From Acidobacteriaceae bacterium (GTDB lineage: Bacteria; Acidobacteriota; Terriglobia; Terriglobales; Acidobacteriaceae), in assembly GCA_003139095.1 (NCBI GenBank), contig PLHW01000051.1, positions 1 to 57,018 on the forward strand: a DNA stretch of 57,018 nt, given 5' to 3'. Position numbers and translations under genes: made by a program. Shown piece by piece: positions 5,686 through 53,518 of this stretch. Every line of letters starts with the position of its first letter. Position 1 is the first letter of the stretch. A model generated the notes under the pieces. That model did not search any database. It was not told the origin of the DNA and saw only the letters and a list, made by a program, of their open reading frames with translations.

Positions 5686-5734
5686 TCGTCGTTGGTCGTT
5701 CGCCATTCGCTGATAGCTCTCAGCTGTCAGCTCT
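5686..5734. repeat. Heptameric repeat tract in the ftsA-ftsZ gap
   Basis: Seven consecutive 7-nt units on the plus strand in one unbroken phase: TCGTCGT, TGGTCGT, TCGCCAT, TCGCTGA, TAGCTCT, CAGCTGT, CAGCTCT. The tract fills most of the space between the ftsA stop and the ftsZ start, and its first unit abuts the ftsZ Shine-Dalgarno sequence. The TGGTCGT units recur upstream of moaDE (49174-49208). Confidence 0.75.
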
Positions 5735-5799
5735 CCGTAAGAACTTTTGCCTCGCTTTGCTCGGCTGGACGGGTGAGACGCTCGTCCATATACAAAACT

Positions 5800-7020
5800 T
5801 CACGCGCCCTTCTTCGCGAATAACGCTTTCATTCTTGAGCCGAAGCCGGGCTCTTGCAGGCCTCGGGCTAATCGTGCGCGATGACCGTAATAGATCATGC
5901 CAAGCAGCGTGGAAAACTCGGGCTCGGCCAGAGAGGACGGCATCTTGGCCATTGCCGTCGGCCATGCTAAACGCGCGGCCTTGCGCAAAATTGATTCGGC
6001 CACATCTAACATGCCGGGCAAGCGCGATGCTCCGCCGCTGAGCACAAAGCCCGCGATGCAGTGATTGAGAACGCCCGCCTGGCGCAGGTTGTCGCGCATG
6101 AATTCAAAAAGCTCGCGGGCACGCGGGCCAAGGATTTCTCCGATCATGCGCTGCCGCATCATACGCGACGGGCGATCGCCGACCGACGGCACTTCGACCT
6201 CGTTGCCTTCGGGAATGAGCGTGGGTACGGCGTTGCCGAAAGTTTTCTTCAGCAGTTCGGCGTCGGCGAAGCCAGTGGTCATGCCAACCGAAAGATCGCT
6301 GGTGAAGTGATCGCCGCCGATGGGGATGACCGCGGTATGGGCGACTGCGCCTTGTTGAAAAACGATGAGGTCGCAACTTCCCGCGCCCAGATCGACGAGG
6401 CAGACGCCAAGCTCGCGCTCATCCGGGCGCAACACGGAGTCGGCGCAGGCAAGCGGCTCGAAAATCGTGTCGTCGACGTGGACGCCCGCTTTGTTCACTG
6501 CCGTGACCAAATTTTGCGTGGCACCGGAGAGCGCGGTCACGATGTGGACACGCACTTCAAGGCGCGTCGCCATCATGCCAGTCGGGTCTTGCACGCCCGC
6601 CTGATCGTCGAGGATGAACTCCTGCGGCAGCAGGTGAAGAATCTCGCGGTCGGCGGGAAGCGGCAGCGTGCGCGCCTTTTCGACCGCCTGCCGAATTTCA
6701 TCGCGCCCGATTTCGCGCGAGCGTGTGCCGAAGCTGATGCCGCCGTGGCTGTTCATGCCGCGGATGTGCGCCCCGGCGATGCCAATGACGGCGTGTTCGA
6801 TGGGAATGACGGCGACATCCTCGGCGGCCTCCACCGCTCTTTGAATGCTGCTCACGGCCTTGTCGAGTTCGGTGATCACGCCCTTGCGCAGACCGCGCGA
6901 TTCGGTGATGCCGTGTCCGCGATAGCGCAGGCCGTTCTCGCTCAGTTCGCCGACCAGCACGCTCGTTTTTGAGCTGCCTACGTCAATGGCGGTAATGAAG
7001 TTGGGCTCACGGCTGGGCAT
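5800..7020 (-). CDS. ftsA: Cell division protein FtsA
   Basis: Actin-fold ATPase that tethers FtsZ to the membrane. The phosphate-1 motif is TAIDVGSSKTSVLVGE near the N-terminus, the 1C subdomain (SHS2) follows at about residues 85-165, and a second nucleotide-binding strand reads VCLVDLGAGSCDL. The adenosine motif is VLSGGASRLPGM. The C-terminus ends in a short amphipathic segment (GSRMKALFAKKGA), as expected for the membrane-targeting helix. The 406-residue length is normal. It starts 8 nt after the ftsQ stop and is probably co-transcribed; the 121-nt gap to ftsZ holds the heptameric repeats. Confidence 0.97.
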   Translation of the reverse strand: MPSREPNFITAIDVGSSKTSVLVGELSENGLRYRGHGITESRGLRKGVITELDKAVSSIQRAVEAAEDVAVIPIEHAVIGIAGAHIRGMNSHGGISFGTRSREIGRDEIRQAVEKARTLPLPADREILHLLPQEFILDDQAGVQDPTGMMATRLEVRVHIVTALSGATQNLVTAVNKAGVHVDDTIFEPLACADSVLRPDERELGVCLVDLGAGSCDLIVFQQGAVAHTAVIPIGGDHFTSDLSVGMTTGFADAELLKKTFGNAVPTLIPEGNEVEVPSVGDRPSRMMRQRMIGEILGPRARELFEFMRDNLRQAGVLNHCIAGFVLSGGASRLPGMLDVAESILRKAARLAWPTAMAKMPSSLAEPEFSTLLGMIYYGHRARLARGLQEPGFGSRMKALFAKKGA

Positions 7021-7028
7021 GATGATCG

Positions 7029-8429
7029 CTAATTCTGCGGAGACTCCTTTGCAACTACGGGGCTGGGTTTCTTTTGATTGTTCTTCGCGCTTGCGGGCGC
7101 CAAAGCAGCTTGTGGCGCGGGCTTCGGGGCACTAACCGCAGCCGGCGATTGCGCAATGGGCAATGGAGCGGCCGGCACGATCGCAGTTTTGGGTGTCATG
7201 TTTGACGATGCCGCAGGCGATGGATGCGCAGCGGAGTTCTTCGCCGCGTTGGCGTTCGAATTTACTCGTGGGGTCGCCTTGCGATTGGCGGGCAGTGAGC
7301 TATTCTTCGCGGCGCCTTTCACCGCGGTTTTCGCTCCTGCTTTTTTCGGTTGTCCAGGTTTATTCACCGAAGTGGGGGCCGGATGATTCACAAACTTTTC
7401 ATAGTTGACGATTGCGGCGTTCTTAACTCCCGCAGCCACCGCGGCTTTCGCGGCGGAAGGCGTCAAGGCAGGCTGTCGCGCCAGCCCTTGCAGATCCGGA
7501 TTGACGATGATCTGTCCATCGAAGCGTAAATCCACCGATTCGAGCTTCTCGAACTGCTGCCGCCAGACTTCGACATGGGTCACATAGATTTTGTAGCGCT
7601 GAAGGTAATTGGCGTTGCCGAGGTGTACGAGCACCCCGCCCGAAGAATCGGCGGTCACAACCTTGACGTCATCGGGGTCCGCGAGATCGACCTCGCTGAG
7701 GTCCTGTGAATAATGCGCGCCGCCGGAGTCGAGCTGACCGATCAGTTCGTTGTAGTTCTTCATGCGCGCGGCACGCGTGGAGACTGGTTCGCTCGCGTTC
7801 ATGCCGCTGATGACGGGGAAGGAATATTTGTGTTTGCCTCCGGGCGCCAGATCCATCAGATTGCCGCCCGCGTCGATCAGGGAAATGTGGGAACCGATGC
7901 GCGCGAAGGCGACGGGCGTGCGCTCATGAATTTCGATGCGCAGGCGATTGGGCACAAAGCGCATCACGCTGGCCGATTCTACCCAGGGAATCTGCTCAAG
8001 TTGCTGTTTGCGAAGCGCCAGCGGGACAAAGAAGATGTTGCGGCCGATGTCGCCGCCCATCACGTCCATAATTTGCGCGTGCGGCACATGCTGCGCGCCA
8101 AGCACCTCGATCTGGTCGCTGGAGTCGATGCGGAAACGCCAGGAGCGGTTCCCATAGCGGTAGAGTGCGGCGCCAGTGACGGCCAGCAGGCCAACAATGA
8201 CGAGCGCCAGCCCCGCCCACTTCAGGCTGATGGCGGCTTTTTTCGGGATGGCTCCGCGCCGGGCGGAGACTCGCTTCTGTCCTCGCAGGAACGGGGATTC
8301 CTGCTCCGCTTCGAGATCGATGAGGCGTGCGTCATCAAACGGTTCGCGCTCGCGTGCGTCGCGCTCAGCATCGCGGGGAACCGGATACAACTCTTCCTGG
8401 ACGGCAGTGGAACTTGCTTTGCGCGCCAC
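7029..8429 (-). CDS. ftsQ: Cell division protein FtsQ/DivIB with long Ala/Pro/Lys-rich tail
   Basis: A 466-residue bitopic membrane protein. A charged cytoplasmic N-terminus leads to one transmembrane helix (about residues 68-90) and then a POTRA domain (IEVLGAQHVPHAQIMDVMG, RNIFFVPL). The FtsQ beta domain ends near VDLRFDGQIIVNPD. The last ~150 residues are low-complexity Ala/Pro/Lys/Ser sequence, far longer than in enterobacterial FtsQ (276 residues), and presumably a periplasmic wall-spanning tail. FtsQ recruits FtsL/FtsB to the divisome. The start is GTG 8429; no strong Shine-Dalgarno sequence is visible, so the start is moderately certain. Confidence 0.92.
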   Translation of the reverse strand: MARKASSTAVQEELYPVPRDAERDAREREPFDDARLIDLEAEQESPFLRGQKRVSARRGAIPKKAAISLKWAGLALVIVGLLAVTGAALYRYGNRSWRFRIDSSDQIEVLGAQHVPHAQIMDVMGGDIGRNIFFVPLALRKQQLEQIPWVESASVMRFVPNRLRIEIHERTPVAFARIGSHISLIDAGGNLMDLAPGGKHKYSFPVISGMNASEPVSTRAARMKNYNELIGQLDSGGAHYSQDLSEVDLADPDDVKVVTADSSGGVLVHLGNANYLQRYKIYVTHVEVWRQQFEKLESVDLRFDGQIIVNPDLQGLARQPALTPSAAKAAVAAGVKNAAIVNYEKFVNHPAPTSVNKPGQPKKAGAKTAVKGAAKNSSLPANRKATPRVNSNANAAKNSAAHPSPAASSNMTPKTAIVPAAPLPIAQSPAAVSAPKPAPQAALAPASAKNNQKKPSPVVAKESPQN

Positions 8430-8532
8430 GCGTCGGGTCAGTTGTCGACAGAAAACCGCTGAGCAAAATTACTATAACTTCTTTTTTCGAAATGAAACAG
8501 TGAAAAGTTGACCGCCCGAGTTGCGGCCCAGC

Positions 8533-9990
8533 TTACAGGTTGGTCACGAGAGTCCGCTTCGCAAGCCTTTCGAGAATGGCAGAGCCGAGTTGTGAAACGC
8601 TGCCTGCGCCGAGCGTTAGGATCAGATCGCCGGATTGGGCGATGGCCGCGGCTTTCTCGGCGGCAGCGGCAAAAGAAGCCGCATAGAATACTTCGATCTT
8701 TCCTGCGCCTGTAATTCGGTGTGCCAGCGCCTCGGTCGTGATGCCTTCAATCGGTTTCTCGCTGGCGGGATAGATATCGAGCAGGACCAGCGTGTCGGCG
8801 TCGGCGAAGGCGGTTGCGAACTCGTCCATCAGATCGCGAGTGCGTGTAAAGCGATGCGGCTGGAAGATGACGTGAACGCGGCGGAACCCGCACTGGCGGG
8901 CGGCGGCGAGCGTGGCGCGAATCTCGGTGGGGTGGTGGCCGTAGTCGTCGACGACGCTGACGCCGGCCGCTTTGCCCTTTAACTGGAAGCGGCGATCGAC
9001 GCCGCGGAAGCCGCCGAGCGCACTGCGAATCTGGTCGGGCGGAACATCGAGTGCGGTGCCAACCGCGATGGCGGCAGTGGCGTTCAGCACGTTGTGGACG
9101 CCTGGGACATGGAGCGTGAACGCGCCAAGACTCCTCTTCTTATATGTGACTTCGAATCGGCTGAGCGGACGCGGGTCCGCGGCGGCGACCGCCGGATCGT
9201 TAAACGGATATGGCTGTGCGGCACCGAACGGATATGCGTGCGGGACATCGAGGCGGATCAGGAAATCCGAACCCTCCCTGGTTCCATACGTCATGACGCG
9301 GCGATGCACGCGCGGCAGCATCCGCTGGAGAACGGGATCGTCGTGGCATCCTACGACCAGGCCGTAAAAGGGAACGCGCTCCATGAACTCGAGGAAGGTG
9401 CGGCGAATGTCGCGCATGTCGCGATAGCAGTCCATGTGCTCGCGGTCGATGTTAGTGACAACAGTGAGAATCGGCGAGAGCTTGAGGAAGGACCGGTCGC
9501 TCTCGTCGGCCTCGGCGACAAGATACTGCGACTTGCCGAGGCGTGCGTTCGAGCCCATGGCATCGACGCGTCCGCCAACCACAACCGTTGGGTCAAGGCC
9601 GCCCGCGGCGAGAACGGCGGCGACCATTGAGGTCGTGGTCGTTTTGCCGTGCATGCCCGCGATGGCGATGCCGTACTTCAGTCGCATCAATTCAGCCAGC
9701 ATTTCGGCGCGCTGGATCACGGGAATGTGCAGACGGCGCGCTTCGGCGACTTCGAGATTGTCGATGGAGATGGCGGAACTGGTGACGATTACGTCCGCGC
9801 CAGCAATGTTCGCCGCTTGATGGCCTTCGAAGGTCTGCGCGCCGAGGCTGGCGAGCCGCTCGGTGACCGCGGAACTCTTCAAGTCGGAGCCAGAAATCTC
9901 GTAGCCGAGATTCAGCAGGACTTCGGCGATGCCGCTCATGCCGATGCCGCCGATGCCTACGAAATGGATGCGTTGAATTTTGGCGAACAT
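8533..9990 (-). CDS. murC: UDP-N-acetylmuramate--L-alanine ligase MurC
   Basis: Cytoplasmic Mur ligase that adds L-alanine to UDP-MurNAc. The N-terminal Rossmann motif is [16 protein letters not shown], the ATP-binding P-loop is [11 protein letters not shown], and the ligase-family histidine region [12 protein letters not shown] and the C-terminal [10 protein letters not shown] are present. The frame opens further upstream at 10083, but the family begins just before the Rossmann motif, so ATG 9990 (485 residues) is the likely start; neither start has a clear Shine-Dalgarno sequence. No murB or ddl lies between murC and ftsQ. The gap to murG is unusually long and repeat-bearing. Confidence 0.96.
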
Positions 9991-10153
9991 ACTACTAGTG
10001 GAGAATTGCACACTTTTTTTGCGGCGGATGTGCGCATATGAACGCTGATGATAGAACATTTTCTGGCTGCTGACGAAGGCCATTCAATCGCGGGAGAGTC
10101 TGAGCGGAATCGGGTTTCTGTGTACCATTTAGTAACAGAGACCCCCCTTGGTC

Positions 10154-10283
10154 GGTCTTTTGGAATCAGTGGGTTAGGGGGAAATCTCCGCCAGGTCTTT
10201 GAGGAATAAGGACTTAGTATAATTCTTTAGAATCAATGACTTAGCTGAGACTCCAACGTGGTCTTTGAAAAATAAGGACTTAG
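10154..10283. repeat. Four degenerate 24-nt repeat units between murG and murC
   Basis: Four 24-nt units lie in the same orientation at 10154-10177, 10194-10217, 10221-10244 and 10260-10283. Their common pattern is GGTCTTTnGAATnAnnGACTTAG, written on the plus strand. Units 2 and 4 differ at only two positions. Start-to-start spacing is 40, 27 and 39 nt. They fill much of the 393-nt gap 9991-10383 and would be in the murC leader on the transcribed strand. No gene is supported in the gap. The spacers are too short and unequal for a CRISPR. Confidence 0.7.
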
Positions 10284-10383
10284 AAGTAAAGTATTTATTT
10301 TGCAATAAGATAGCGGCGGCTTCTGCATCGTGCCGAGTTTCTCTGGTGCTCTGTGCACTGAGCCTTATTTGGGGGTGCATGCT

Positions 10384-11535
10384 TCAGTCGGCGGCGGCGA
10401 GGCGCGCCACCATTTCCGCAATTTCTTCGACTGCTTTGGGATGGGCGAGCGACCTTGCGGCTTCCGACATGGCGACGAGCCGCCGCGGATCGCTGAGTAA
10501 GGCGGCGATGGTTTCGACCAAATACGCGGCTTCGAGATTCGATTCTTCGACCACGATGGCGGCGCCGGCGTTTTCGAGGGCGCGCGCGTTTTTGTTCTGG
10601 TGGTCGTCGGCGGCGTGCGGGAACGGAACGAAAATCGCCGGCTTGCCGGCGGCGGTAATTTCGCCGACCGTGCTAGCGCCCGAGCGGCAGACCAGCAAAT
10701 CGGCTTTGGCGAACATGGCGGGCATGTCGTCGATGAATTTGTGGACTTCGCCGGACATGGCGGCGGATCGCTCGCCCGTCAGTCGTTCGCCCGTGAACCC
10801 AAGCCGCTTGTATGCCGCAAGCACGGTTTCATAGTCGCGCTCGCCGGTTTGGTGGATGATGTGGAGCGCGGGAATTTTTGCGCGCAGCCCGGGCAGCGAT
10901 TCGATCATGGCCTGATTAATCGCGTGCGCGCCTTGACTGCCTCCAAAGACCAGAAGAGTGGGAACGCCTCTCGCGGCGACTTCGCCCTTCTTCAGCAGGT
11001 CGCGCGCGCCCGGCGCCGCCCCTTTTGCGGGAATTTTGAAGAACGCTTCGCGCACCGGAACGCCTGTGACTTTCGCACTCCGAAAGTATTCGCAGGTTTC
11101 TTCGAAATGAACCGCCGCGGCCGACACGAAGCGCGCGACCATGCGATTGGCAAATCCGGGAACGACATTGGGCTCGAAGGCGAGCGTCGGAATGCGGCGG
11201 CGAATGGCCGCGACCATGGCGGGCCCAGACGCGTATCCGCCGACGCCGATGACTACGTCGGGCCGGAAGTCGGAAACAATTCGCCCTGAGACCCACAGTG
11301 CCCGTGGCAGATCGAAGATCGTCTTTACGCGCGTTAGGAGGCTGACATTTTTCAATGCACCCACCTGGATCAACTCCAACGGAAATCCGGCTCGCGGCAC
11401 AAGACGGGTCTCAATGCCGCGCGGGGTGCCGATAAAGAGCACTTCGGCCGCGAACTGCTTTTTCAGTTGCTGGGCGATGGCCAGGGCGGGAATGACGTGT
11501 CCGCCGGTACCTCCGCCCGCGATGATGACGCGCAT
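10384..11535 (-). CDS. murG: UDP-GlcNAc:lipid I transferase MurG
   Basis: Peripheral inner-membrane GT-B glycosyltransferase that makes lipid II. The N-terminal diagnostic loop is [18 protein letters not shown], and further G-loops are [12 protein letters not shown] and [12 protein letters not shown]. The UDP-GlcNAc-binding [31 protein letters not shown] block is present, split here across normal family positions. ATG 11535 places the first G-loop 4 residues from the start, as in the family; the frame could extend to 11613 but that adds unrelated sequence. Length is 383 residues. ftsW, which usually precedes murG, is absent; instead a divergent Crp/Fnr gene lies upstream, so a promoter must sit in 11536-11728. 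Confidence 0.97.
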
Positions 11536-11728
11536 GGTTGGTTTAACACACGAATCTAACATGGAAGCCGGGCGCAGTTGCCCCCTGCCACCGCCGTTCG
11601 TACTTTCCCACAATCGGCGTATTCCGGTCGCCGGAAAAGTGGGACTCGCATGGTATGCGCTGCCTGCGGTGCCTGCTTTACCGAACTCCGGTAGAATGCT
11701 AGTATCCGGCAGTCAGTGTGAGGATCGC

Positions 11729-12445
11729 ATGAGCACGCCCTACGGGCTTCAGATCACCGAGAACTGCCTTATCTGCAAGTTGCGCCATTCCGGCTTCTTC
11801 TGCGATCTCCCCAAGCCTTCCCTCGAGCAGTTGGAAAAGATCAAGTACGCCAGCGCTTACCCGCAGGGCGCAGTGCTGTTCGTGGAAGGCCAAGCCCCGC
11901 GCGGCATCTACATTCTCTGCTCGGGACGCATTAAGCTGACCACGACATCGCGCGACGGCAAGACGCTGATCTTGCGCATCGCCCAGGCGGGCGAGGTTCT
12001 TGGCCTACACGGGACCGTTTCCGGCAAGCCCTACGAACTGACCGCGGAGACGTTGCAGCCCAGCCAGCTCGACTTCATCAAGCGCGACGATTTTCTCAAA
12101 TTTCTCCAGTCTCATGCCGACGCCTGCCTGAATGCAGCGCAGCATCTGAGCCAGAACTGCCAGACCGCGTATGAAATGATCCGCTCGCTTGGCCTGTCGC
12201 ATTCCGTCTCCGAGAAGCTGGCGCGCCTGTTGCTGGAATGGGCGAGCGACGGCGAGCAGACCAAGGACGGCATTCGAATCAAGATCGCCCTGACGCATGA
12301 AGAGATCGCGCAACTCATCGGCACGTCGCGCGAAACCGTGACTCGGGTGCTGGGCGAATTCCGCGACAAGGATATGGCCCAGCTTCGCGGCTCCACCCTC
12401 CTGATCCGCAACAAAGCCGCCTTACAAAAACTGATCGGCGCTTGA
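11729..12445 (+). CDS. Crp/Fnr-family transcriptional regulator with N-terminal cysteine cluster
   Basis: A 238-residue protein with a cyclic-nucleotide-like sensor domain (about residues 40-125) and a C-terminal helix-turn-helix (HEEIAQLIGTSRETVTRVL). The recognition helix carries the Crp-type RETxxR pattern. The N-terminus has Cys13-x2-Cys16-x8-Cys25, with further cysteines at 64, 133 and 142, reminiscent of the iron-sulfur ligands of FNR (Cys20, 23, 29, 122 in E. coli) but with different spacing. A redox or oxygen sensor is therefore plausible but not proven. ATG 11729 follows GAGGAT at about 7 nt. The frame runs far upstream, but that part is antisense to murG. Confidence 0.88.
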   Translation: MSTPYGLQITENCLICKLRHSGFFCDLPKPSLEQLEKIKYASAYPQGAVLFVEGQAPRGIYILCSGRIKLTTTSRDGKTLILRIAQAGEVLGLHGTVSGKPYELTAETLQPSQLDFIKRDDFLKFLQSHADACLNAAQHLSQNCQTAYEMIRSLGLSHSVSEKLARLLLEWASDGEQTKDGIRIKIALTHEEIAQLIGTSRETVTRVLGEFRDKDMAQLRGSTLLIRNKAALQKLIGA

Positions 12446-12449
12446 AAAG

Positions 12450-12491
12450 CAGTTGCCGGTTGCCAGTTGTCAGTTGCCAGTTGCCAGTTAA
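12450..12491. repeat. Heptameric repeat (CAGTTGC type)
   Basis: Six 7-nt units start 5 nt after the regulator's stop codon: CAGTTGC, CGGTTGC, CAGTTGT, CAGTTGC, CAGTTGC, CAGTTAA. Confidence 0.8.
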
Positions 12492-12593: not shown

Positions 12594-12609
12594 CGAGAAC
12601 TGAGAACTG
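12594..12609. repeat. Short heptameric repeat (GAGAACT type)
   Basis: Two GAGAACT units (reverse complement AGTTCTC, the same unit as at 47272-47327), about 100 nt upstream of the PpiD-like gene. Confidence 0.5.
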
Positions 12610-14817: not shown

Positions 14818-14837
14818 TAACCGAGAACCGAGAACTG
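14818..14837. repeat. Heptameric repeat just upstream of malQ
   Basis: Nearly three units of AACCGAG/AACTG phase (reverse complement CAGTTCT, CGGTTCT), ending 6 nt before the malQ ATG. No Shine-Dalgarno sequence is visible between the repeat and the start. Confidence 0.6.
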
Positions 14838-14843
14838 TTTTAA

Positions 14844-26519: not shown

Positions 26520-26575
26520 AGTTGCCAGTTGCCGGCTGTCAGTAGCCAGTTTTCAGTTTTCAGCTGTCGGTTTGG
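26520..26575. repeat. Heptameric repeat tract
   Basis: Seven clear units and one weak one in phase: AGTTGCC, AGTTGCC, GGCTGTC, AGTAGCC, AGTTTTC, AGTTTTC, AGCTGTC, GGTTTGG. It starts about 125 nt past the dehydrogenase stop. It shows several unit types drifting within one tract. Confidence 0.75.
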
Positions 26576-29352: not shown

Positions 29353-29611
29353 GCACGGCGCGGTTGCTGTGTCTCACATTTTGCGAGAGGTTTGCCTGCG
29401 GGGAGAGGGTGCGGGGGACTCGGTCGTCCCTCCGGGACTTGAATCATTTTGTTGCTTTACCCCGGCGCTGAAGCGCTGGGCTACTTTTGCGCGCCCCTCC
29501 GGGGCTGGGTCTCGATAAACCGCAGCCAGTCCCCCTTGCGCAGAAGTCCCACCCTTGCCAAGAACGCAAGGGTGGGGCAGCCTCAGAAAGGTAGTGCGGG
29601 AAAGAAAGGGT
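29353..29611. repeat. ~260-bp dispersed repeat, copy 1
   Basis: Nearly identical in order and sequence to 31308-31569 and in the same orientation, with scattered substitutions and small indels. Contained modules are CTCACATTTTGCGAGAGGTT, ACTCGGTCGTCCCTCC, an AGCGCTGAAGCGCT-type palindrome before GGGCTAC, CTCCGGGGCTGGGTCTC, and the 11-bp stem-loop listed at 29548. It contains no gene. With the 29662 stem-loop it accounts for most of the 700-bp gap 29113-29813. Confidence 0.85.
29548..29576. repeat. Perfect 11+7+11 stem-loop (CCCACCCTTGC)
   Basis: CCCACCCTTGC, loop CAAGAAC, then GCAAGGGTGGG: an 11-bp perfect stem followed by GCAG. It lies inside repeat copy 1. No T-run follows, so it is not a standard terminator. 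Confidence 0.8.
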
Positions 29612-31307: not shown

Positions 31308-31569
31308 GCACGGCGCGGTCACTGTGTCTCACATTTTGCGAGAGGTTTGCCCGCGGGGAGAGTGTGGAGGGGACTCGGTCGTCCCTCCCGGACTTGAAAC
31401 ATTTTGGTTGCGTTACCCAGCGCTGAAGCGCTGGGCTACTAATGGGCGCGCCTCCGGGGCTGGGTCTCACATAAATCGCAGCGTGTCCCCCTTGCGCAGA
31501 ATTCCCACCCTTGCCAAGAACGCAAGGGTGGGGCAGCCATCAGAAAGGTGGTGCGGGAAGGAAAGGGTG
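31308..31569. repeat. ~260-bp dispersed repeat, copy 2
   Basis: Same orientation and module order as copy 1 at 29353-29611, so the two form direct repeats around the GloVer gene. It lies in the 537-bp gap 31047-31583, which holds no supported gene. A half-motif GAGTGGGGTACGAAGGAGTG precedes it. Confidence 0.85.
31504..31532. repeat. Perfect 11+7+11 stem-loop (second copy of CCCACCCTTGC)
   Basis: Identical to the 29548-29576 stem-loop in both arms and in the CAAGAAC loop, while the repeat around it has drifted; this suggests the hairpin is the conserved core. Confidence 0.8.
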
Positions 31570-40525: not shown

Positions 40526-40653
40526 TCTGCGATCTCCTCAAACTAAGTTGTCGTTGGTCCGTTCGGCAGGTCGCTGGCGGGCCGGGAGGCGCTTTGGGTC
40601 TTTTGCCAATCAGGCTGACGGCGGAACGACCATCGACGGATTCAGGATACAAG

Positions 40654-40684: not shown

Positions 40685-40710
40685 GAGTCTAAAGCTCTAC
40701 GAGAAAAACG

Positions 40711-41293: not shown

Positions 41294-41790
41294 ACTGCTC
41301 GTCAATCTAGCGCATCCAGAAATTAAGTCAAGCTAATAGTGGGCCGCGTACAAAAAAAAAATTTAAAAGATAAAAAGTTTGCGACATTGCGGCAAGAGAT
41401 GAGTCAATCGAGTGAAAGCCGCTTTCACAGCGGCGAAAGAACGGGTTAGCGGAGGCCGATTTGGAGGTTCCGGGGCCTGCGCCGAGGCTGGCCGAAACGC
41501 GGAGGATGGACCCAATTGTGGGATGTCATGCGGAGCCGATGCCGTGTCCTGGTGATAACGCAGCTATTGCCGTCGCGCCACGCGTAATTCCTTGACACCT
41601 CACCTCCGGGTGGACAATTATTGTGGCCTAGGTATCGCCGACTCCTTCCGTATCAGGCCGCTTCCCCCCGGACAAATGCGATGGAAGAATGACGACTTGC
41701 TCTCGAGGCAATCGCGGGTATTCGAGTTCCCTAGAACGGGTCAGCGAAAAACAGTTGGCCGAGCCGGCATCGAGGGCGAGGGTTCGAGGC

Positions 41791-41828
41791 AGAGAACAAA
41801 GGCCGTTCCAGAGAACAAAGGCCGTTCC
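41791..41828. repeat. Perfect 19-nt tandem duplication
   Basis: AGAGAACAAAGGCCGTTCC occurs twice back to back (41791-41809 and 41810-41828), ending 12 nt before the start of the GloVer gene. Confidence 0.9.
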
Positions 41829-41840
41829 AAGGGAGGGACT

Positions 41841-47271: not shown

Positions 47272-47327
47272 CAGTTCCCAGTTCTCAGTTCTCAGTTCTC
47301 AGTTCTCAGTTCTCAGTTCTCAGTTGT
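47272..47327. repeat. Heptameric repeat, the most regular tract
   Basis: Eight units: CAGTTCC, six identical CAGTTCT copies, then CAGTTGT. It lies between the VWFA gene's stop and the TonB receptor's start, on the 3' side of the former. Confidence 0.9.
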
Positions 47328-47435: not shown

Positions 47436-48416
47436 TCAGAAGGTGCCTTTTCTGGTGTAGTAGCCGGCGCGGTTGTGGACCTGGAAGGGGCCGCCGGGCG
47501 GGGGATTTGAGAGATTGATCTGGACGCGGCGGAAATCGGAATCGGAATAACGGTCGGAGGGATAGTAGGCGAGGAGATATTGGGTGCGGAGTTCGTCGCT
47601 GATTTTGCGGAAGGCGTCGTCGAGTTGGGGCATGGAAGTGGCGTAGTAATATTTGCCGCCGGTATCGGAGGAGATCTGAATGAGAGCGTGTTCGCCGCCG
47701 GTGTCGCGGCCGGCGCTGGCTTCGATGGGAACGATGATGATGCTGTAGATGATGGCCTCGGCTTCCTGCGCGGCGCGGAGAGCCTCCTTGTAATTGACCT
47801 GGCTGATGGTGTCGCCGCCGTCGGTGATGACGACCATGACCTTGCGGCCAAGGCGCTTGTTGAGGGCCTGTGAGCCAAGAAAGATGGCGTCGTAGAGAGC
47901 GGTGGCGGAGCCGTTGCGGATGCGGTCGATGCCGGCGTCAATTTTTTTCAGGTCGGCGGTGAAGGGGACAACCTCGCTGACCTCCTCGCTGAATTTGTAG
48001 AGGGACAAGCCATCCTGCGGGCGGAGGATGGTGTGGGCGAATTTGCGGGCGGAGGAAAGTTCGAGCGGAAGGTCTTTGCGCGTGCTGAGACTGGTATCGA
48101 CGGAGAGGACGATGGAGAGTGGGAGCGCGGACTCGCGGGAGAAGACAGCGATCTTCTGATCCTTGCCGTTTTCCTGGAGTTGAAAATTTTCCTTGTTGAG
48201 GCTGGCGACGGGCGCGCCGCGGGAATCGGTGACGGTGACGAAGACGTTGACGAGTTTGACGTCGACGCGGAGGGTGGTGGTCGGGTCCTGGGCGAGCGTT
48301 GGGAGAGTAGCGAGAAGTAGCAGAGTGAAAGCTACGAGCTTCGAGATACGAGCTAGGAGCTTGGAACCATGATCGGCGAACACACTTAGATGTTTTTTCA
48401 TTTTAGGGACATTCAT
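47436..48416 (-). CDS. VWFA-related Acidobacterial-type protein
   Basis: A 326-residue exported protein (signal peptide about residues 18-43). A short N-terminal beta domain (VDVKLVNVFVTVTDSRGAPV) precedes a von Willebrand A domain with a degenerate MIDAS, VLSVDTSLSTRK (D-x-S-x-S) plus VVITDGGDT. This is the TIGR03436-type family abundant in Acidobacteria; function is unknown, probably adhesion or envelope assembly. Its ATG overlaps the moaDE stop (ATGA, 48413-48416), so it is translated with it, an unexpected pairing. Part of its signal peptide is encoded by a 7-nt tandem repeat. Confidence 0.92.
   Translation of the reverse strand: MNVPKMKKHLSVFADHGSKLLARISKLVAFTLLLLATLPTLAQDPTTTLRVDVKLVNVFVTVTDSRGAPVASLNKENFQLQENGKDQKIAVFSRESALPLSIVLSVDTSLSTRKDLPLELSSARKFAHTILRPQDGLSLYKFSEEVSEVVPFTADLKKIDAGIDRIRNGSATALYDAIFLGSQALNKRLGRKVMVVITDGGDTISQVNYKEALRAAQEAEAIIYSIIIVPIEASAGRDTGGEHALIQISSDTGGKYYYATSMPQLDDAFRKISDELRTQYLLAYYPSDRYSDSDFRRVQINLSNPPPGGPFQVHNRAGYYTRKGTF
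48329..48363. repeat. Heptameric repeat inside the VWFA signal-peptide coding region
   Basis: Plus-strand units GAGCTTC, GAGATAC, GAGCTAG, GAGCTTG preceded by a partial GCTAC. Because it is coding, it gives the SKLLARISKLVAF segment. The unit is the same as at 53477-53518 upstream of atpB. Confidence 0.75.
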
Positions 48417-49171
48417 TTGGATGCGGGGTCGCGGCTTTCTGGGGCGGGGTGGGGGTGAATTTCCGGGGGGAAGGGCTCGCCGTCGGCCCAGACCGCGCCG
48501 TCCTCGAAATATTCCTTCTTCCAGATGGGGACGGTTTTCTTGAGCGTGTCGATGAGCCAGCGGCAGGCTTGAAAGGCGGCATCGCGATGGGCGGAGGCGA
48601 CGGCAATGAGGACGCTGGTTTCGCCGATTTCGAGGTGGCCGAGGCGGTGCACGATGGCGACGGCGCGCACGTCGAACTGGGCGCGGGCCTGGGTGGCGAG
48701 CGCTTCCATTTGCTTTTGGGCCATGGATTCGTAGGCCTCGTAGTGGAGGTAGAGGGTGCGGCGAGCGCGAGTGTGGTTGCGCACGACGCCTTCAAAGATG
48801 ACGGCGGCGCCATCTTCGGGACGCTTCAGTTGAGCGAGGACGGCGTCGGCTGCGATGGGAGCGCGGACGATGCGGACGTGGTCGCGGTTTGCGGCCTTGG
48901 CATCGGACTGGGACTGGGGCTGGGGCGCGCCGCCGCTGACAGGAGGGAGCAGAGCGACTTCGTCGCCGGAATGCAGCGGGCGATCGGCAGTGGCGTATTC
49001 CTGATTTACAGACAGCGCGAGCGAGGGAAGAAGTTTTTCAAGCCGGGGAGTGCGACGGACGTAATGAGAAAGCACGTCGTGGAGGCAGGCGCCTTCGGGC
49101 AGATCGATGAGTTCGGTGGAGTGGCCGAACAGATCTTGGAGAAGGCCGAAGAATAGGATGCGGATTTGCAT
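48413..49171 (-). CDS. MoaD-MoaE fusion (molybdopterin synthase)
   Basis: A 252-residue protein joining both subunits of molybdopterin synthase, which inserts sulfur into precursor Z. Residues 1-81 are MoaD, a ubiquitin-like sulfur carrier ending LLPPVSGG; about residues 98-240 are MoaE, with GVVRNHTRARRTLYLHYEAY and the catalytic lysines in KKTVPIWKKEYFEDG. The MoaD diglycine (80-81) is followed by AP and a Gln/Ser linker instead of a free C-terminus, so cleavage is needed before sulfur loading, as reported for mycobacterial MoaX. No other moa gene is nearby. ATG 49171 follows a heptameric repeat without a clear Shine-Dalgarno sequence. Confidence 0.93.
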   Translation of the reverse strand: MQIRILFFGLLQDLFGHSTELIDLPEGACLHDVLSHYVRRTPRLEKLLPSLALSVNQEYATADRPLHSGDEVALLPPVSGGAPQPQSQSDAKAANRDHVRIVRAPIAADAVLAQLKRPEDGAAVIFEGVVRNHTRARRTLYLHYEAYESMAQKQMEALATQARAQFDVRAVAIVHRLGHLEIGETSVLIAVASAHRDAAFQACRWLIDTLKKTVPIWKKEYFEDGAVWADGEPFPPEIHPHPAPESRDPASK

Positions 49172-49173
49172 GT

Positions 49174-49208
49174 TGGTCGTCGGTCGTGAATCGTTGGTCG
49201 TTCGGTTG
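49174..49208. repeat. Heptameric repeat abutting the moaDE start
   Basis: Five units: TGGTCGT, CGGTCGT, GAATCGT, TGGTCGT, TCGGTTG. It ends 2 nt from the ATG on the minus strand, where a ribosome-binding site would lie. TGGTCGT is also found upstream of ftsZ. Confidence 0.8.
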
Positions 49209-49309
49209 GCTCGCCCCAGTGTATCGCTTTGAGGAACCGGTGGGGCATGTACCAGAGTGACGGGAGTAGTGGAGTGAAGGCAAAGATTCTATTACCAGCG
49301 TAATCGTGC

Positions 49310-52096
49310 GTGAGGTCACGTTCCGGCATAGGCTTGTTGGTGACGCTCCGCCACGAGGAGGCTGCCATCCCGAAGGCCATTCAAGTCGACCCAGGCTGTA
49401 GCGCGTCTGCGCGGGCGTTCCTTCACAGTCTCAATATTCTGATTAAGTACACGCGGTTGTATGGGGCGAACCACAAGCGCACCGACTCGCAATTCGAAAC
49501 CGCCTGGCATGAGCTGCAACAGGCGCTGCCGAAGAATGGAGACACCGGCTTTGTGCTGGGAGTCTCGGACGAAAAGCTGCTGCTGGATGGGATCCCGCTG
49601 GAGGCGGGGCAGGCGGAGCGCAGCTTTGCGCAACTGCTGAATGCGGCGGGATTGTCGAGCATTCTGTTCTCGAGCAAAGTGAATCTGGACGACTTCACGC
49701 GGCTGGTGCGGGCGTTTGCGATGGGCGGGTCGAAGGCGCAGGACTTCGCCAAGCAAATTAAGGAGACTCTGGGCGACAACAAGACGAGCTCGATCCGGAT
49801 CAACGAAGTGAAGTTTGTTGCGGCCGATCCAGCGACGGGAGAGTTGTCGATCGCGGCGCAACTGGCGGCGCAGTCGATTGGGCCAGAGTTCAAGGAGTGG
49901 CTGAACGATCCGCAAAAGTTGTTGCAATTGATTGCGGCCGCGCAGGGTGCGAGCGCGGGAACGGGCGGCTCGGTTGGGCCGCTGGGCACGGTTCCGACGG
50001 GAATGGCGGGCGGGGACGGGACGGCGGGTGCAGGAAGCGGGGCTGGTTCCGGGCAAGCGTGGAGCGGCGGGGTGGTGCCGCTGCAAGAAGAGGAAGTGAT
50101 CCGAACGATTCGGCTGCTGACGCATTTTGGACAAGCGATGGAGGATCCGAATCTGCCGCCGGAGAGCTTGAAGACGGAACTGGTGGACCTTTCCGAGAAC
50201 ACGAAAGTGAACCTGGCGCAACTGCTGGAGGGACTGGCGGCGCAGACGTCGCTGAATACTTCGGGGGCGAACAACGACACGCCGCTGCTGATGAAAGCGG
50301 CGGAGAGCATGGCGATCAAGTTCGCGCTGGACCGTTATCAGAAGGGCGACATGAAGGTGAATGCCGTCCACGAGATGATGGAGCACCTGAGCCGGCAGAT
50401 GGAAACGCTGCGGCAGATTCTGCGGGTGCAGGAAGACAAGATGTCGAAGGCGGGCATTCTGGTGGAGTCGCATGCGGACATCCTGGACCGCATGTTCTGG
50501 GCGGAAGTGCCGGAAACAGGGAAGAAAAGCGTATTGCTGTCAAGCGAAGCGGCGTGCGTGCCGCCGCGGAACATCCGGCAGTTTTTGGAGCTGCTGTTTG
50601 AGCGGGAAGACGCGGAGCTGGCCGGAAGAATTCTTTCGAATTATTGCAATTGCCTGGAGCAGAAAGAGCCGGAGCCGCGGCGGAAGACGGCAGTGGGGGT
50701 GGCGCAACTGGCGGATCTGTACGCGGACGCGCCGGTCGAGGTGATGCCGGAGGCAATCGCGCTAATTGGGACGAAGATGGCAGGCGAGGAGGACTCGGAA
50801 ATTCAGAGCCTGCTGAGCGCGTCGATTACGCGGTTGGGGCAGGAGGCGTGCGCTCGCAAGAAATATAAAGCGATCGCGCAGTTGTGCTCGTCATTCGACC
50901 ATGTGGGCCGGGAACGGCCGGCGCTGGCGGCGGATTTGAGGTCGCGGGTGGGAGTGGAGAACCGGCTGCCGGAGATGATCGAGGAAGCGATCGGCAGTGG
51001 AGAGACGCACGAGGAAGTGACGCTGGTGCTGCGGCAACTGCCGAAGCATTCGGTGGAACATCTGGCGGAGCGTTTTTTCCGTTCGCAGAAGCGGGAAGAG
51101 TGCGACCGGATCATGGAGCTGGTGGGCGAACTGGGGGCGAGCGCGCTGTCGGATTTGCGCGAGATTTTGCGGATGGGACAGCCGCGGCAAGCGGCTTCGA
51201 CGGTTGGGCTGTTGAGCCGACTGGATCCGGAGGCTCTGCTGGACCTGCTGCCGGGACGGATGGGCGACTTCAATCGTTTTTATCAGGACGTGATTGTGCG
51301 GCAGATCGCGTATGCGGCGGCGCCGGATCGCGGGCGAACGCTGCTGGAGTTGCTGGAACTGCTGGATCCGCTGATTCTGCCGGAGGCGATTGACGAGATC
51401 GGGATGAGCCAGGACCGGAGCGCGAGCGCGAGTTTGATCACGCTGGCGTCGAGCGGGGAGGCGCATTCGCGGTCAGCTTTCGTGCAACTGAAGGCGGTGG
51501 AGTGCCTGGGACGGTTGCGCGAGATGGATGCGGTGCCGATTTTGCGGAGCATTGTGGAAGAGAAGAAATTTCTGGGCTACACGCAAAACCGGGAGTTGCG
51601 GATTGCGGCGATTCAATCGTTGTCGAAGATCGATCCGCGGTACGGGACGCAGGCGCTGGCGGAGAGCGGTCTGCAGACGGGAGAGATCGCGGTAGCCCCG
51701 CTGGATTCGGCGCTGGGCTGTCCGTGGGTGAGGCAGCGGCGGTACGAGCGGATTGTGTTGCCGCGGACGCTGTCAGCGACGCTGTCGAGTTCGTGGGGGA
51801 AGTCGAACCTGGTGATGCGGGAGATGAGCCTGGGCGGAGGCATGGGGACGCGGAACGATAATCTGCGGGTGGGTTCGGAAGCGCTGGTGGAGATTTCGAC
51901 GGGGGTGAAGAAGATTCGGGCGCAGGTGCTGCTGCGGCGGGCGCGCGTGAACGAGATCGGATTCGAGTTTGTGCAGATGGACCTGGACAGCCGCTACCGG
52001 CTGCGGCGGATTCTGATGGAGGCGCTGGAGAAGGCCGGGAATGCGCGGTTGTCGGAGTGGAACGGGGAGCGGAAGGTCGAACCCAAGGGGCACTGA
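49310..52096 (+). CDS. Large HEAT-like protein with C-terminal PilZ domain
   Basis: Up to 928 residues, soluble, no signal peptide. A mainly helical N-terminal and middle region (about 20-800) includes Gly-rich linkers near residue 225-260 and leucine-rich helical repeats recalling HEAT/ARM arrays. The C-terminal ~110 residues form a PilZ domain, with RRYER (R-x-x-x-R-like) and MSLGGG (x-S-x-x-G) as the c-di-GMP-binding motifs. It may couple c-di-GMP to motility or secretion, by analogy only. The start is uncertain: GTG 49310 opens the frame, but the best ribosome-binding site (GAGGAGG) lies 5 nt before an ATC at 49369. It converges on atpE through a shared terminator. Confidence 0.8.
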   Translation: MRSRSGIGLLVTLRHEEAAIPKAIQVDPGCSASARAFLHSLNILIKYTRLYGANHKRTDSQFETAWHELQQALPKNGDTGFVLGVSDEKLLLDGIPLEAGQAERSFAQLLNAAGLSSILFSSKVNLDDFTRLVRAFAMGGSKAQDFAKQIKETLGDNKTSSIRINEVKFVAADPATGELSIAAQLAAQSIGPEFKEWLNDPQKLLQLIAAAQGASAGTGGSVGPLGTVPTGMAGGDGTAGAGSGAGSGQAWSGGVVPLQEEEVIRTIRLLTHFGQAMEDPNLPPESLKTELVDLSENTKVNLAQLLEGLAAQTSLNTSGANNDTPLLMKAAESMAIKFALDRYQKGDMKVNAVHEMMEHLSRQMETLRQILRVQEDKMSKAGILVESHADILDRMFWAEVPETGKKSVLLSSEAACVPPRNIRQFLELLFEREDAELAGRILSNYCNCLEQKEPEPRRKTAVGVAQLADLYADAPVEVMPEAIALIGTKMAGEEDSEIQSLLSASITRLGQEACARKKYKAIAQLCSSFDHVGRERPALAADLRSRVGVENRLPEMIEEAIGSGETHEEVTLVLRQLPKHSVEHLAERFFRSQKREECDRIMELVGELGASALSDLREILRMGQPRQAASTVGLLSRLDPEALLDLLPGRMGDFNRFYQDVIVRQIAYAAAPDRGRTLLELLELLDPLILPEAIDEIGMSQDRSASASLITLASSGEAHSRSAFVQLKAVECLGRLREMDAVPILRSIVEEKKFLGYTQNRELRIAAIQSLSKIDPRYGTQALAESGLQTGEIAVAPLDSALGCPWVRQRRYERIVLPRTLSATLSSSWGKSNLVMREMSLGGGMGTRNDNLRVGSEALVEISTGVKKIRAQVLLRRARVNEIGFEFVQMDLDSRYRLRRILMEALEKAGNARLSEWNGERKVEPKGH

Positions 52097-52147
52097 ACAT
52101 AGAGAGCCGGCGCGGCGTTGCTCATGTGAGGCGCCGATAGGAAATAG

Positions 52148-52176
52148 AAAAGCCTCCACTTGCGTGGAGGCTTTTT
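52148..52176. terminator. Bidirectional rho-independent terminator
   Basis: AGCCTCCAC, loop TTGC, GTGGAGGCT, flanked by A residues on one side and T residues on the other, between the convergent PilZ gene and atpE. It should serve both. Confidence 0.9.
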
Positions 52177-52239
52177 CGTTTGAGACTTTTCGGGTGAAAA
52201 ACTTTCTGCTGCAAATCTCCCCGCTCAAACCTTCGAGGG

Positions 52240-52551
52240 CTAGGCTACTTTCACGAAGATGATAACGAGCGTGAAGAGCACGAGGGACTCGATGAAGGCG
52301 AGGCCGAGAATCAGGGCGACCTGAATTCCGGCGCGGGCAGCGGGATTGCGGCCGAGGGCTTCGCAGGCCGAAGAGGCGGCGCGACCCTGACCCTGGGCGG
52401 CGAGGCCGGCGGCGATGGCGATGGCGAAGCCGGAGGTGATGGCGACCCAGTTGGTGCCACCGGGGGCGGCTGCACCGGTCTGAGCGAAGGCGGGAACGGC
52501 GAAGATGGAACAGAAGAGCAAGAGCAGAAGCAACATCATGGTTTTGCGCAT
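52240..52551 (-). CDS. atpE: F0F1 ATP synthase subunit c (with N-terminal signal-like extension)
   Basis: A 103-residue proteolipid whose two helices build the rotor ring. Helix 1 ends in the polar loop GRNPAA (family RQP-like), and helix 2 carries the ion-binding glutamate in GLAFIESLVLF. A very hydrophobic N-terminus, MRKTMMLLLLLLFCSIFAVPAFA, looks like a cleavable signal peptide, absent from E. coli subunit c (79 residues). The binding site keeps Gln (GQG), Glu and Ser, three of the Na+-site residues of Ilyobacter subunit c, but has Leu and Phe where that has Thr and Tyr. It is the last gene of the F0 group, followed by a terminator. Confidence 0.96.
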   Translation of the reverse strand: MRKTMMLLLLLLFCSIFAVPAFAQTGAAAPGGTNWVAITSGFAIAIAAGLAAQGQGRAASSACEALGRNPAARAGIQVALILGLAFIESLVLFTLVIIFVKVA

Positions 52552-52632
52552 TTTTGTTTTCTCCTTTTATAAACTGCCGCCAGTGGGTGGTTGACGCCGT
52601 GCTGCTGGAGCCGGCGCCCTCACGCTGGAGGG

Positions 52633-52714
52633 CAGGTGTCAGGTCTCAGGTCTTAGGTCTCAGGAAAACCGGAGTTGACTTTCCTGAGACCTAAGACCTG
52701 ACACCTAAGACCTG
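52633..52714. repeat. Heptameric repeats forming a ~35-bp hairpin between atpB and atpE
   Basis: Left arm 52633-52667: CAGGTGT, CAGGTCT, CAGGTCT, TAGGTCT, CAGGAAA. Right arm 52680-52714 is its reverse complement with about three mismatches; the loop is the 12 nt ACCGGAGTTGAC. In the atp mRNA it would begin 4 nt after the atpB stop codon and precede atpE. Confidence 0.85.
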
Positions 52715-52718
52715 AACT

Positions 52719-53474
52719 CTAATGTTCGTGCGCCATGGCTTCGCCTAGATACACGGCAGGCAGAAGCACGAAAATATATGTCTGGATAAGAGACACGCCG
52801 ACGTGCAGCCCTTCAAAGATGATGGGGATGCCGATCGGCACAAGCGAAAAGAAAACAAGCGTCACCATTTCGCCGGCGAACATGTTTGCGAAAAGACGAA
52901 CGCTGAGCGAGAGGATGCGGGCCAGATGACTGAAAACTTCGATCGGGAAAATCAGGATAGGAAGGATGATGCGCACGGCTAAGGGCATTCCCTCCTGGGG
53001 TCCGATGAAGTGCTTCAGATAGCCTCCAACGCCATTTTCACGCAGGCCCGCGAAGTGGTAGTAGAACCAAGTTAAGAGCGCCGCGCCAAGGGGCACAGTT
53101 TCGACGGCTGTGGGCGATTCGAGGCCTGGAACCAGGCTGAGCAGATTGCAGGTAAGAATGAACATTCCCAGGACGGTGAGGTAGGGAACGAATTTCGATG
53201 AGTTATGGCCAATGATCTCGTCCGCCAGGTTTGAGATGAAACCGTGAATGCCTTCCATGGTGAGCTGGAGGCCGCCGGGATTTTCGACAGAAAGGCGGAG
53301 GCGCACGGCGATGAAGAAGGCGGTGAGCAGCAGGACGACGAGGACTTCCATCGCCACCGAGTTGGGAATGGGGGCGGCGGGATGCGCGGGCTGAATGTGG
53401 AGCGCCTGGAGCAGGGCGTTGACGGCCGGGCCGAGGAGATGATTGAGGAATTTAGTAAAAGTAAGTTGTTCCAT
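52719..53474 (-). CDS. atpB: F0F1 ATP synthase subunit a
   Basis: A 251-residue membrane protein forming the ion half-channels against the c-ring. The essential arginine is in LSLSVRLFANMFAGE, which matches the LRLFGNM block of other subunits a. Hydrophobic helices and the HLARILSLS lead-in are normal. It lies between atpI and atpE. ATG 53474 is preceded by six heptameric repeat units and no obvious Shine-Dalgarno sequence; a hairpin of related heptamers follows its stop. Confidence 0.97.
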   Translation of the reverse strand: MEQLTFTKFLNHLLGPAVNALLQALHIQPAHPAAPIPNSVAMEVLVVLLLTAFFIAVRLRLSVENPGGLQLTMEGIHGFISNLADEIIGHNSSKFVPYLTVLGMFILTCNLLSLVPGLESPTAVETVPLGAALLTWFYYHFAGLRENGVGGYLKHFIGPQEGMPLAVRIILPILIFPIEVFSHLARILSLSVRLFANMFAGEMVTLVFFSLVPIGIPIIFEGLHVGVSLIQTYIFVLLPAVYLGEAMAHEH

Positions 53475-53476
53475 AG

Positions 53477-53518
53477 GAGCTTCGAGCTACGAGCCGCGAG
53501 CTACGAGCTTAGAGCAGA
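53477..53518. repeat. Heptameric repeat immediately upstream of atpB
   Basis: Six units on the plus strand: GAGCTTC, GAGCTAC, GAGCCGC, GAGCTAC, GAGCTTA, GAGCAGA. It ends 2 nt from the atpB start codon, occupying the ribosome-binding region. Confidence 0.85.

Follow-up and report, generated by a model that had tools for sequence, protein, structure and literature searches.

The genomes of one acidobacterial clade carry between their genes a class of tandem arrays whose units are exactly seven nucleotides long, and many of these arrays stand as inverted pairs in the spacers of operons. We encountered them in a 57,018-nt stretch of DNA from an Acidobacteriaceae bacterium (hereafter, the window), which is contig C24 of a draft genome (G000, the own genome of the comparisons below; 5.53 Mb in 75 contigs). 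The arrays lie preferentially behind stop codons, are abundant in the ribosomal-protein operon, and turn over their units with both arms of a pair changing. A possible explanation, to which we give about an even chance, is that the arrays originate by 7-nt slippage, are rewritten by exchange between the two arms, and are transcribed as intercistronic hairpins. We rank a DNA-level explanation first and a selected hairpin second: no selected role is needed to account for our measurements, and a selected RNA role is possible and unproven.

Heptamer arrays in the window and in related genomes

Genome-wide counts were made on 732 kb of G000, the window included, and the sample was then extended to G018 and, as a third genome, G014; loci holding at least 100 N were left out of the period counts, and N was otherwise ignored. 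Strict period-7 arrays in G000 numbered 25 in intergenic and 2 in coding DNA, as compared with 0 in one Markov shuffle, and the only other intergenic periods represented by more than 5 arrays were 8 (9 arrays), 14 (24), 16 (7) and 21 (7). The corresponding period-7 counts were 9 intergenic and 3 coding in G018 and, at a looser threshold, 28 and 6 in G014, where intergenic DNA held no array of period 8 and 15 of period 14. Seven is the commonest intergenic period in all three sampled genomes. With a period of exactly 7, an intergenic location and a frequency above chance, the arrays belong among the bacterial intergenic heptameric tandem repeats. Cyanobacterial short tandemly repeated repetitive (STRR) heptanucleotides are also intergenic heptamer arrays, with small dispersed repeats or hairpin elements embedded in them.

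Octamer arrays (TTGAAACC/GGTTTCAA; e.g., L020 7677-7716, 13307-13368 and 13951-14006, and L029 15758-15954) form a parallel class that is also hairpin-forming; in G000 the second basic period after 7 is 8, which has no representative in the intergenic DNA of the G014 sample.

At the looser threshold G000 and G018 together yield 118 intergenic arrays, and in 71 of these the unit, on either strand and in any rotation, deviates from GAACTGA at no more than 2 positions, as compared with about 12% of random heptamers. Arrays of CAGTTCT (up to 2 mismatches) occur in 23 of 24 genomes of the genus, the member without a match being G021, and a reversed-pattern control gave 0 in all 24. The array-bearing relatives among the records listed are Terriglobia, Acidobacteriaceae, Ca. 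Sulfotelmatobacter and gp1 metagenome-assembled genomes (MAGs); nine genomes stand behind these records, and the SecY identity to our own is 82-85% in five and 69-70% in two of them. The number of units at one junction differs between genomes, those compared including no close strain pairs. An earlier note on the window, made from its letters alone, had proposed that the tracts form one class of strict 7-nt arrays and had named a neutral repeat as an alternative to a role in translation. The window tracts are indeed members of the intergenic heptamer array class of one acidobacterial clade, and we count the neutral alternative among the parts of that note that are supported.

Each tract was compared with 1000 shuffles of its own neighbourhood (12 stretches, with 52633-52714 split into two arms), and 10 of the 12 exceeded their local shuffles at lag 7 (p = 0 to 0.019). 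Strict heptamer phase thus holds for most of the tracts for which it was claimed, and fails for the supposed weaker tract at 40550-40577, which is not a 7-nt repeat (p = 0.967); that at 49174-49208 is borderline, another lag scoring 0.50 against 0.57. Tandem Repeats Finder gave period-7 rows at every tract except 49174 and 40550, covering at 5686-5734 only 5715-5735. The tracts are as follows.

52633..52714, minus strand: array hairpin between atpB and atpE, formed by two inverted arrays (CAGGTCT / AGACCTG type), starting 4 nt past the atpB stop codon.
5686..5734, minus strand: single array upstream of ftsZ, AGAGCTG/ACAGCTG grading into ACGACCA, without an inverted partner (lag-7 0.69, p = 0).
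12450..12491, no strand assigned: CAGTTGC array, 4 nt past the stop codon of a cNMP-binding/Crp-like gene, found by Tandem Repeats Finder and local shuffling, with a weak inverted partner at 12594.
12594..12609, no strand assigned: short GAGAACT array that pairs weakly, in inverted orientation, with 12450-12491 some 100 nt away (p = 0.019).
14818..14837, plus strand: short AACCGAG array ending 6 nt before malQ, partnerless (local shuffle p = 0.003).
26520..26575, no strand assigned: AGTTGCC/AGTTTTC array, intergenic and partnerless (lag-7 0.65, p = 0).
47272..47327, no strand assigned: the cleanest array, 8 units of CAGTTCT type, partnerless (lag-7 0.96, p = 0; Tandem Repeats Finder 7.7 copies, 97%).
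48329..48363, no strand assigned: GAGCTAC-type array at the 5' end of a VWA-domain reading frame, 47436-48416, whose true start is uncertain (lag-7 0.75, p = 0).
49174..49208, minus strand: borderline 7-nt tract before a moaD-moaE fusion gene (MoaE and ThiS domains; p = 0.062).
53477..53518, minus strand: GTAGCTC-type array before atpB, partnerless (lag-7 0.74, p = 0).

The tracts at 12594-12609 and 14818-14837 span just 2.1-2.4 units (the former with a partner score of 19 against a shuffled 95th percentile of 14-16), and that at 48329-48363 falls inside the open reading frame 47436-48416. The only full hairpin within the window is 52633-52714, whose inverted partner scores 49 against a shuffled 95th percentile of 16 and whose predicted fold has a minimum free energy of -64 kcal/mol (z = -12.1). 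The earlier note had remarked neither this hairpin nor the weak pair formed by 12450 and 12594.

Pairing, placement and turnover of the arrays

An inverted partner lies within 130 nt of 46 of the 118 intergenic arrays, against a null expectation of 0, and of 15 of the 27 arrays in G014. In named records (80 listed of at least 120 stretches, with taxa assigned by hand from the record titles), a downstream partner accompanies 11 of 40 acidobacterial CAGTTCT arrays and an upstream partner none, as compared with 2 of 44 in other phyla. Read along the mRNA, a paired spacer shows first the stop codon, then a TCAGTTC-type array, an apex, a GAACTGA-type array and finally the start codon. By predicted folding, both the DNA and the transcript of such a pair can form a stem-loop. 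Array stems occur in 16 of 371 co-directional, 2 of 76 divergent and 1 of 85 convergent regions. At the atpB-atpE junction a hairpin with z below -3 is present in 20 of 23 readable genus genomes, our own included, built from units of CAGGTCT, CAGTACC or others; three loci in which it is absent or weak (L222, L240, L241) did not enter the atp rows of the arm test and of the strand comparison below, L220 is without atpE, and L235 and L239 are without a readable region upstream of atpB. An intrinsic terminator was set aside as an identity for the hairpin, the T-run sitting, by eye, within the apex, and a search of Rfam for a known family returned only sub-threshold matches, nearly all to microRNA hairpin models. 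Palindromes of GTAG type (GTAGAGACGGGGC...GCCCCGTCTCTAC) are seen in similar spacers (L180 10054-10115, L181 17746-17886, L262, L264 and L272).

Because genes were called by a simple purpose-written script, start positions are approximate, and 4 of the 118 arrays that are not flanked on both sides by called genes were dropped from the position counts. The earlier note had linked the tracts to ribosome-binding sites, and a crude count in G000 seems at first to agree: of 88 arrays, 24 end in the 20 nt before a start codon (13% expected for random intergenic positions), and 34 have their beginning in the 20 nt that follow a stop codon (12% expected). This excess at starts vanished when arrays were permuted within their own spacers: among 92 arrays from two genomes, all outside the ribosomal operon contig, 17 lay within 15 nt of a start against 16.8 expected, and clustering at start codons was rejected as a general rule. 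The stop side of the same arrays is enriched (34 vs. 17.0 expected). The 27 arrays of G014 gave 7 vs. 4.8 at starts (p = 0.16) and 12 vs. 4.5 at stops (p = 0); the ribosomal contig alone, with 22 arrays, gave 10 vs. 5.4 at starts (p = 0.017) and 8 vs. 5.5 at stops (p = 0.17). Over G000 and G018 together, the 15-nt limit takes in 27 of 114 arrays at starts and 42 of 114 at stops. In co-directional spacers the mRNA near starts reads GAACTGA 16 times and its complement once, and near stops 6 and 15 times, respectively; G014 holds just 3 arrays usable for orientation.

Once spacer length is controlled, the special tie to ribosome-binding sites is lost, and what stands is that some arrays adjoin the start codons of housekeeping genes. 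The genes named in the note (ftsZ, malQ, moaDE and atpB) were correctly identified, each with a tract ending about 8 nt or less from its start. What the note said of their Shine-Dalgarno sequences is in part wrong: ftsZ has GAGG 5 nt before ATG 5678, provided that this codon and not GTG 5684 is the start. By eye malQ, moaDE and atpB have no such sequence, but this is the commoner state here. Loss of the Shine-Dalgarno sequence as a special trait of array-bearing starts was rejected: its frequency is 25 of 69 at starts flush with array hairpins vs. 137 of 374 at other starts, and 56 of 125 in other family members. Tracts are kept upstream of orthologues unevenly. The ftsZ spacers of all 22 genomes (own included) hold by eye at least 2 units, 15 of them reaching 13 of 18 lag-7 matches, so that this array is kept across the genus, whereas of the 22 genus genomes readable before atpB, with our own counted, only about 7 show an array there by eye.

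The ribosomal-protein operon on contig C27 (L029) carries the genes for L3, L4, L2, S3, L5, S8, L6, L18, S5, L30, L15, SecY, Adk, an M24 peptidase, IF-1, S13, S11, S4, RpoA and L17, the 20 genes that were checked. For spacers of 40-160 nt in two genomes, arrays occur in 11 of 16 within the operon vs. 31 of 193 other co-directional spacers (p = 1e-5). The wider sample comprised 16 genomes of the genus, 7 near relatives (3 of the same family and 4 of unstated kinship), 6 more genomes from the family and 11 from elsewhere in the phylum, some with incomplete operons, and spacers outside the stated lengths or containing N were dropped from the folding, array, arm and G-U tests. Among spacers of 45-300 nt, arrays occupy 16 of 19 in our own genome, 176 of 286 in the genus and 92 of 140 in the near relatives (62-84% within the clade); the counts are 20 of 106 in the other family members, 12 of 75 in the rest of the phylum, and 1 of 22 in G021, which belongs to the genus. 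The median operon spacer is 70-128 nt in all 30 genomes of the family and near relatives, with our own counted; among the 11 remaining genomes of the phylum, 10 have medians of 8-32 nt and one has 85 nt. Stems in the operon are mostly 18-33 bp with loops of 11-41 nt, beginning about 11 nt or less past the stop codon, and for the 136 operon array hairpins the median distance is 5 nt on the stop side and 15 nt on the start side.

Operon spacers (L029, L259-L287) are about 95 nt family-wide, with arrays or without. Before S4 and RpoA (L029 15758-15954 and 16564-16752, and relatives), the start-side stretches are conserved and the array part is variable; judging from their sequence, the conserved stretches are possible autoregulatory leaders, and Rfam gave no plausible match in L029 15700-18010.

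The units at a given junction differ among genomes. Between S13 and S11 we find GAACTGA in one genome and, in others, a CTAACGG type, the TTGAAACC octamer, AGACCTG, ACTGGCC or CCGAGAA, and in four family members without an array the spacer is only 3-20 nt. When genomes are compared in pairs, their units differ in at least 2 letters in 57-89% of the pairs at ten junctions, and the 128 scored operon hairpins use 45 heptamers. These do not fall into discrete families, an arrangement that we rejected: one-mismatch linkage places 42 of the 45 (123 of the 128 hairpins) into one cluster, a continuous cloud. Despite this variety, the arms of a spacer match each other better than they match foreign arms at the same junction in 244 of 309 spacers across 19 junctions (mean 24.7 vs. 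14.8), the spacers being related, such that the p-value of this test is no true probability. In an alignment of the S13-S11 spacer from 23 genomes, 15 of 17 pairs have changed on both sides, 90.5% of cells are paired (28-44% in slid controls), and double-changed cells number 58 vs. 14.1 after shuffling, figures favoured by the structure having been derived from the alignment on which it was scored. The predicted fold of this spacer reaches 37 bp in L276, and in L260, L264 and L266 a changed unit is present in one arm only.

Origin of the paired arrays

How might these structures arise? Arrays would grow by 7-nt replication slippage in DNA free of coding constraint, directly after stop codons, this side being favoured because ribosome binding and leaders constrain the sequence near starts, and the long operon spacers of the family would offer room for them. 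Inverted partners would then arise, and come to share a unit, through switching of the polymerase template between the arms, a process perhaps favoured in highly transcribed DNA, and later slippage would blur the base-by-base register. The resulting hairpins would be transcribed within operons, perhaps as passive mRNA structures that protect 3' ends, serve as RNase III substrates or separate cistrons. As far as the available parts of the cited papers go, hairpins can be both generated and kept up by template switching (PMC8794818), quasi-palindrome mutations in yeast were seen only under high transcription (PMC3820800), and slippage has been proposed for the abundance of a heptamer (PMC4692102). 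We infer that template switching under high transcription could be the cause of the enrichment in the ribosomal-protein operon. Mismatches within stems agree with a DNA-level process: G-U and A-C are about equally frequent (165 vs. 157 inside 190 stems; 88 vs. 71, p = 0.20, for isolated mismatches in 136 array stems), which is the strand symmetry expected of such a process. The S13-S11 spacers with a changed unit in a single arm (L260, L264 and L266) also count in its favour.

Several observations weigh against this explanation. Partners are missing from 72 of the 118 arrays, and the polarity of the arms is fixed. Spacers with folding z below -3 number 5 of 19 in our own genome, 75 of 286 in the genus and 46 of 140 in near relatives (26-33%); by predicted folding, array spacers are not all strong hairpins. 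Slippage alone does not predict the enrichment in the operon, and 2 of the 19 junctions show no advantage of own over foreign arms. Of 136 hairpins, 80 are slightly more stable when folded as the sense strand and 54 when folded as its complement (p = 0.002, for related sequences), and the sense strand is ahead in 13 of 20 atp hairpins, a hint, from predicted folds, of an effect at the RNA level. When the register was fixed by 10 apex-near pairs and the next 14 were scored, in-register matching was 0.596 vs. 0.578 after a shift by one unit (p = 0.08; 133 of 136 hairpins), with p = 0.29 and 0.30 when 12 or 14 pairs fixed the register. A register chosen by best score gave 0.85 vs. 0.76 in 29 hairpins and is biased; one set from the outer arm ends gave 0.35 vs. 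0.38 and was replaced by the apex-anchored test. The arms thus match by unit, and base-by-base mirroring is not clear, a weak signal that counts against simple copying between arms unless slippage follows. Because the register is unclear, we place less confidence in slippage and arm exchange, and two of the rivals rise slightly. SbcD bears on both sides. In favour of the explanation, SbcD (TIGR00619) scored above the cut-off in 0 of 22 genomes (21 of the family and G041), 7 of which gave weak matches, and the controls matched in 13 of 14 cases, 8 above the cut-off. Loss of SbcCD was rejected as the cause, since SbcD falls below the cut-off in array-free relatives also, leaving the loss at most permissive; SbcC was not searched.

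It is possible, if doubtful, that the hairpins are instead selected RNA elements of the operon mRNAs, whose letters are free so long as the arms pair. A stem-loop set flush against the upstream stop might fold the spacer away and bring the stop close to the next start, couple or separate the translation of neighbouring cistrons, provide sites for RNase III cutting, or protect upstream 3' ends. The covariation of the arms, their fit between stop and start, the filling of most operon spacers in our own genome and in the genus, the very short S13-S11 spacers of the four array-free family members and the slightly more stable sense strand all speak for selection on the transcript, and the genome has one RNase III match. 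Moreover, the part of PMC10666635 available to us reports that coupling by reinitiation is nearly abolished by a spacer of about 20 nt in E. coli and H. volcanii, such that a folded spacer could matter. Selection on RNA pairing, however, would be expected to favour G-U over A-C, which is not observed; G021 does nearly without arrays, making the trait dispensable; array stems lie also in divergent and convergent regions; and pairs in exact register are not clearly better than those shifted by one unit. The even mismatches, G021 and the stems outside operons call for caution about a selected RNA despite the covariation. A further possibility, which we regard as unlikely, is that the operons of this clade, chiefly those for ribosomal proteins, use sequence-free intercistronic hairpins, in which selection keeps self-complementarity and the stop-to-start fit, and slippage and template switching rewrite the letters. 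A folded spacer may then let ribosomes pass on as they would over a short spacer, or mark a processing site.

Single-stranded GAACTGA-type arrays before starts could also be the sites of a translational regulator or substitutes for the Shine-Dalgarno sequence, as has been proposed for the TAACTGA repeats of Beggiatoaceae. The available part of that study (MacGregor 2015, PMC4679880) describes, in marine Beggiatoaceae, Cyanobacteria and Bacteroidetes, a unit one letter from GAACTGA with the same orientation toward starts, near some essential genes (including those of ribosomal proteins) and often where a Shine-Dalgarno sequence is absent. The forward orientation before starts (16 vs. 1), the array kept before ftsZ throughout the genus and the start-side excess on the ribosomal contig resemble this system. 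Nevertheless, TAACTGA sets lie mostly at starts and repeat a single exact unit, almost always in direct orientation (only one of 169 sets is indirect), whereas that unit is the consensus of 2 of our 118 arrays and a minority of arrays adjoin starts. The same part of the paper has no GAACTGA direct repeats in its Table 3 and no occurrence of Acidobacteria. Since starts outside the ribosomal contig are not enriched, Shine-Dalgarno frequency is equal with and without arrays, 45 heptamers at the same kind of place are many for one sequence-specific protein, and the polarity is also explained if these arrays are the 3' arms of hairpins, we consider a regulator improbable.

Still less probable is a descent of the arrays, as copies or leftovers, from a mobile palindromic element that resembles repetitive extragenic palindromes (REPs) or miniature inverted-repeat transposable elements (MITEs) and is spread by a Y1 transposase. 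From the part of PMC3733652 available, GTAG and CGTC REPs are likewise palindromic, intergenic, dispersed, and next to stop codons or supplying them; GTAG-type palindromes lie in similar spacers here, and Y1 transposase matches are found in 21 of 22 genomes. But REPs are short defined sequences (stems of 5-13 bp), those of GTAG type being tied to transposases, and the word heptamer has 0 occurrences in that text. The common palindrome with a tag tetranucleotide of REPs and their associated transposases (RAYTs) is lacking among our 128 hairpins, which have no single sequence and variable loops and arm lengths. The number of Y1 matches shows no visible relation to arrays (G163 has 7 and arrays in 0 of 19 spacers; G155 has 1 and arrays in 8 of 16), and occupation of the same junctions genus-wide points to long residence. 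Chance or assembly artefact, for which one could cite the draft state of the MAGs and the shortness of some window tracts, can be dismissed given the 0 of the shuffle, the 0 of the reversed pattern in 24 genomes, and the arrays in three sampled genomes and in named records.

Besides the TAACTGA repeats, the closest precedent is the GGGAATC repeats of Xanthomonas (Rehm et al. 2015, PMC4692102), which, in the part of the report available, are intergenic heptamer arrays (of 2-26 units) that vary in length and sequence between relatives, lie nearer to the upstream open reading frame (28 nt on average vs. 160 nt downstream) and include 70 and 75 inverted pairs capable of forming stem-loops in two genomes. 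Our arrays share both the inverted pairing and the position near the preceding stop codon. The Xanthomonas arrays differ in belonging to one G-rich unit family, GGGANTN, studied for quadruplexes, whereas 71 of our 118 arrays are near GAACTGA and the rest have other units; that part makes no mention of covariation of arms with unit turnover or of a filled ribosomal operon. A literature search covering few subscription papers found no heptamer arrays in Acidobacteria and no array hairpins in ribosomal-protein operons. So far as this literature extends, what is new is that such arrays occur in a clade of acidobacteria, that their units are so many, that they fill the spacers of the ribosomal operon, and that both arms change when units turn over.

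When paired bases change in compensation, one usually regards the functional RNA stem as proven. In this clade such changes are found at many junctions, over some 3 kb of spacer in each ribosomal-protein operon, yet the G-U preference that selection at the RNA level should bring is missing. The clade therefore lends itself to testing whether slippage and template switching alone can yield covariation. It also offers a way to learn the effect of long hairpins between the genes of ribosomal proteins, and covariation-based RNA discovery in such genomes needs caution. If sequence-free hairpins do exist, they would be a class of RNA structure defined by construction and not by sequence.

Other features of the window and its genome

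Adjacent to the atpB-atpE hairpin, an atpE leader of about 75 nt (52552-52628, minus strand) is strongly conserved among 23 genus genomes, with 30 invariant columns and one predicted structure of 17 pairs, 2 of them with double changes; its full-length match to the Rfam model freshwater-2 is far below threshold (18.2 bits in the window and 13.5 in L229, against a gathering score of 49.9). Two Acido-Lenti-1 RNAs (RF01687) lie at 29461-29506 and 31416-31461. A second ftsZ, at G000:C63:174632-175864, is 91% identical to that of the window and may derive from a second strain, the contamination of the bin being 2.56%. Near the 5' end of an SGL-like gene (called start 41916) there is a perfect 19-nt tandem duplication, at 41790-41829.

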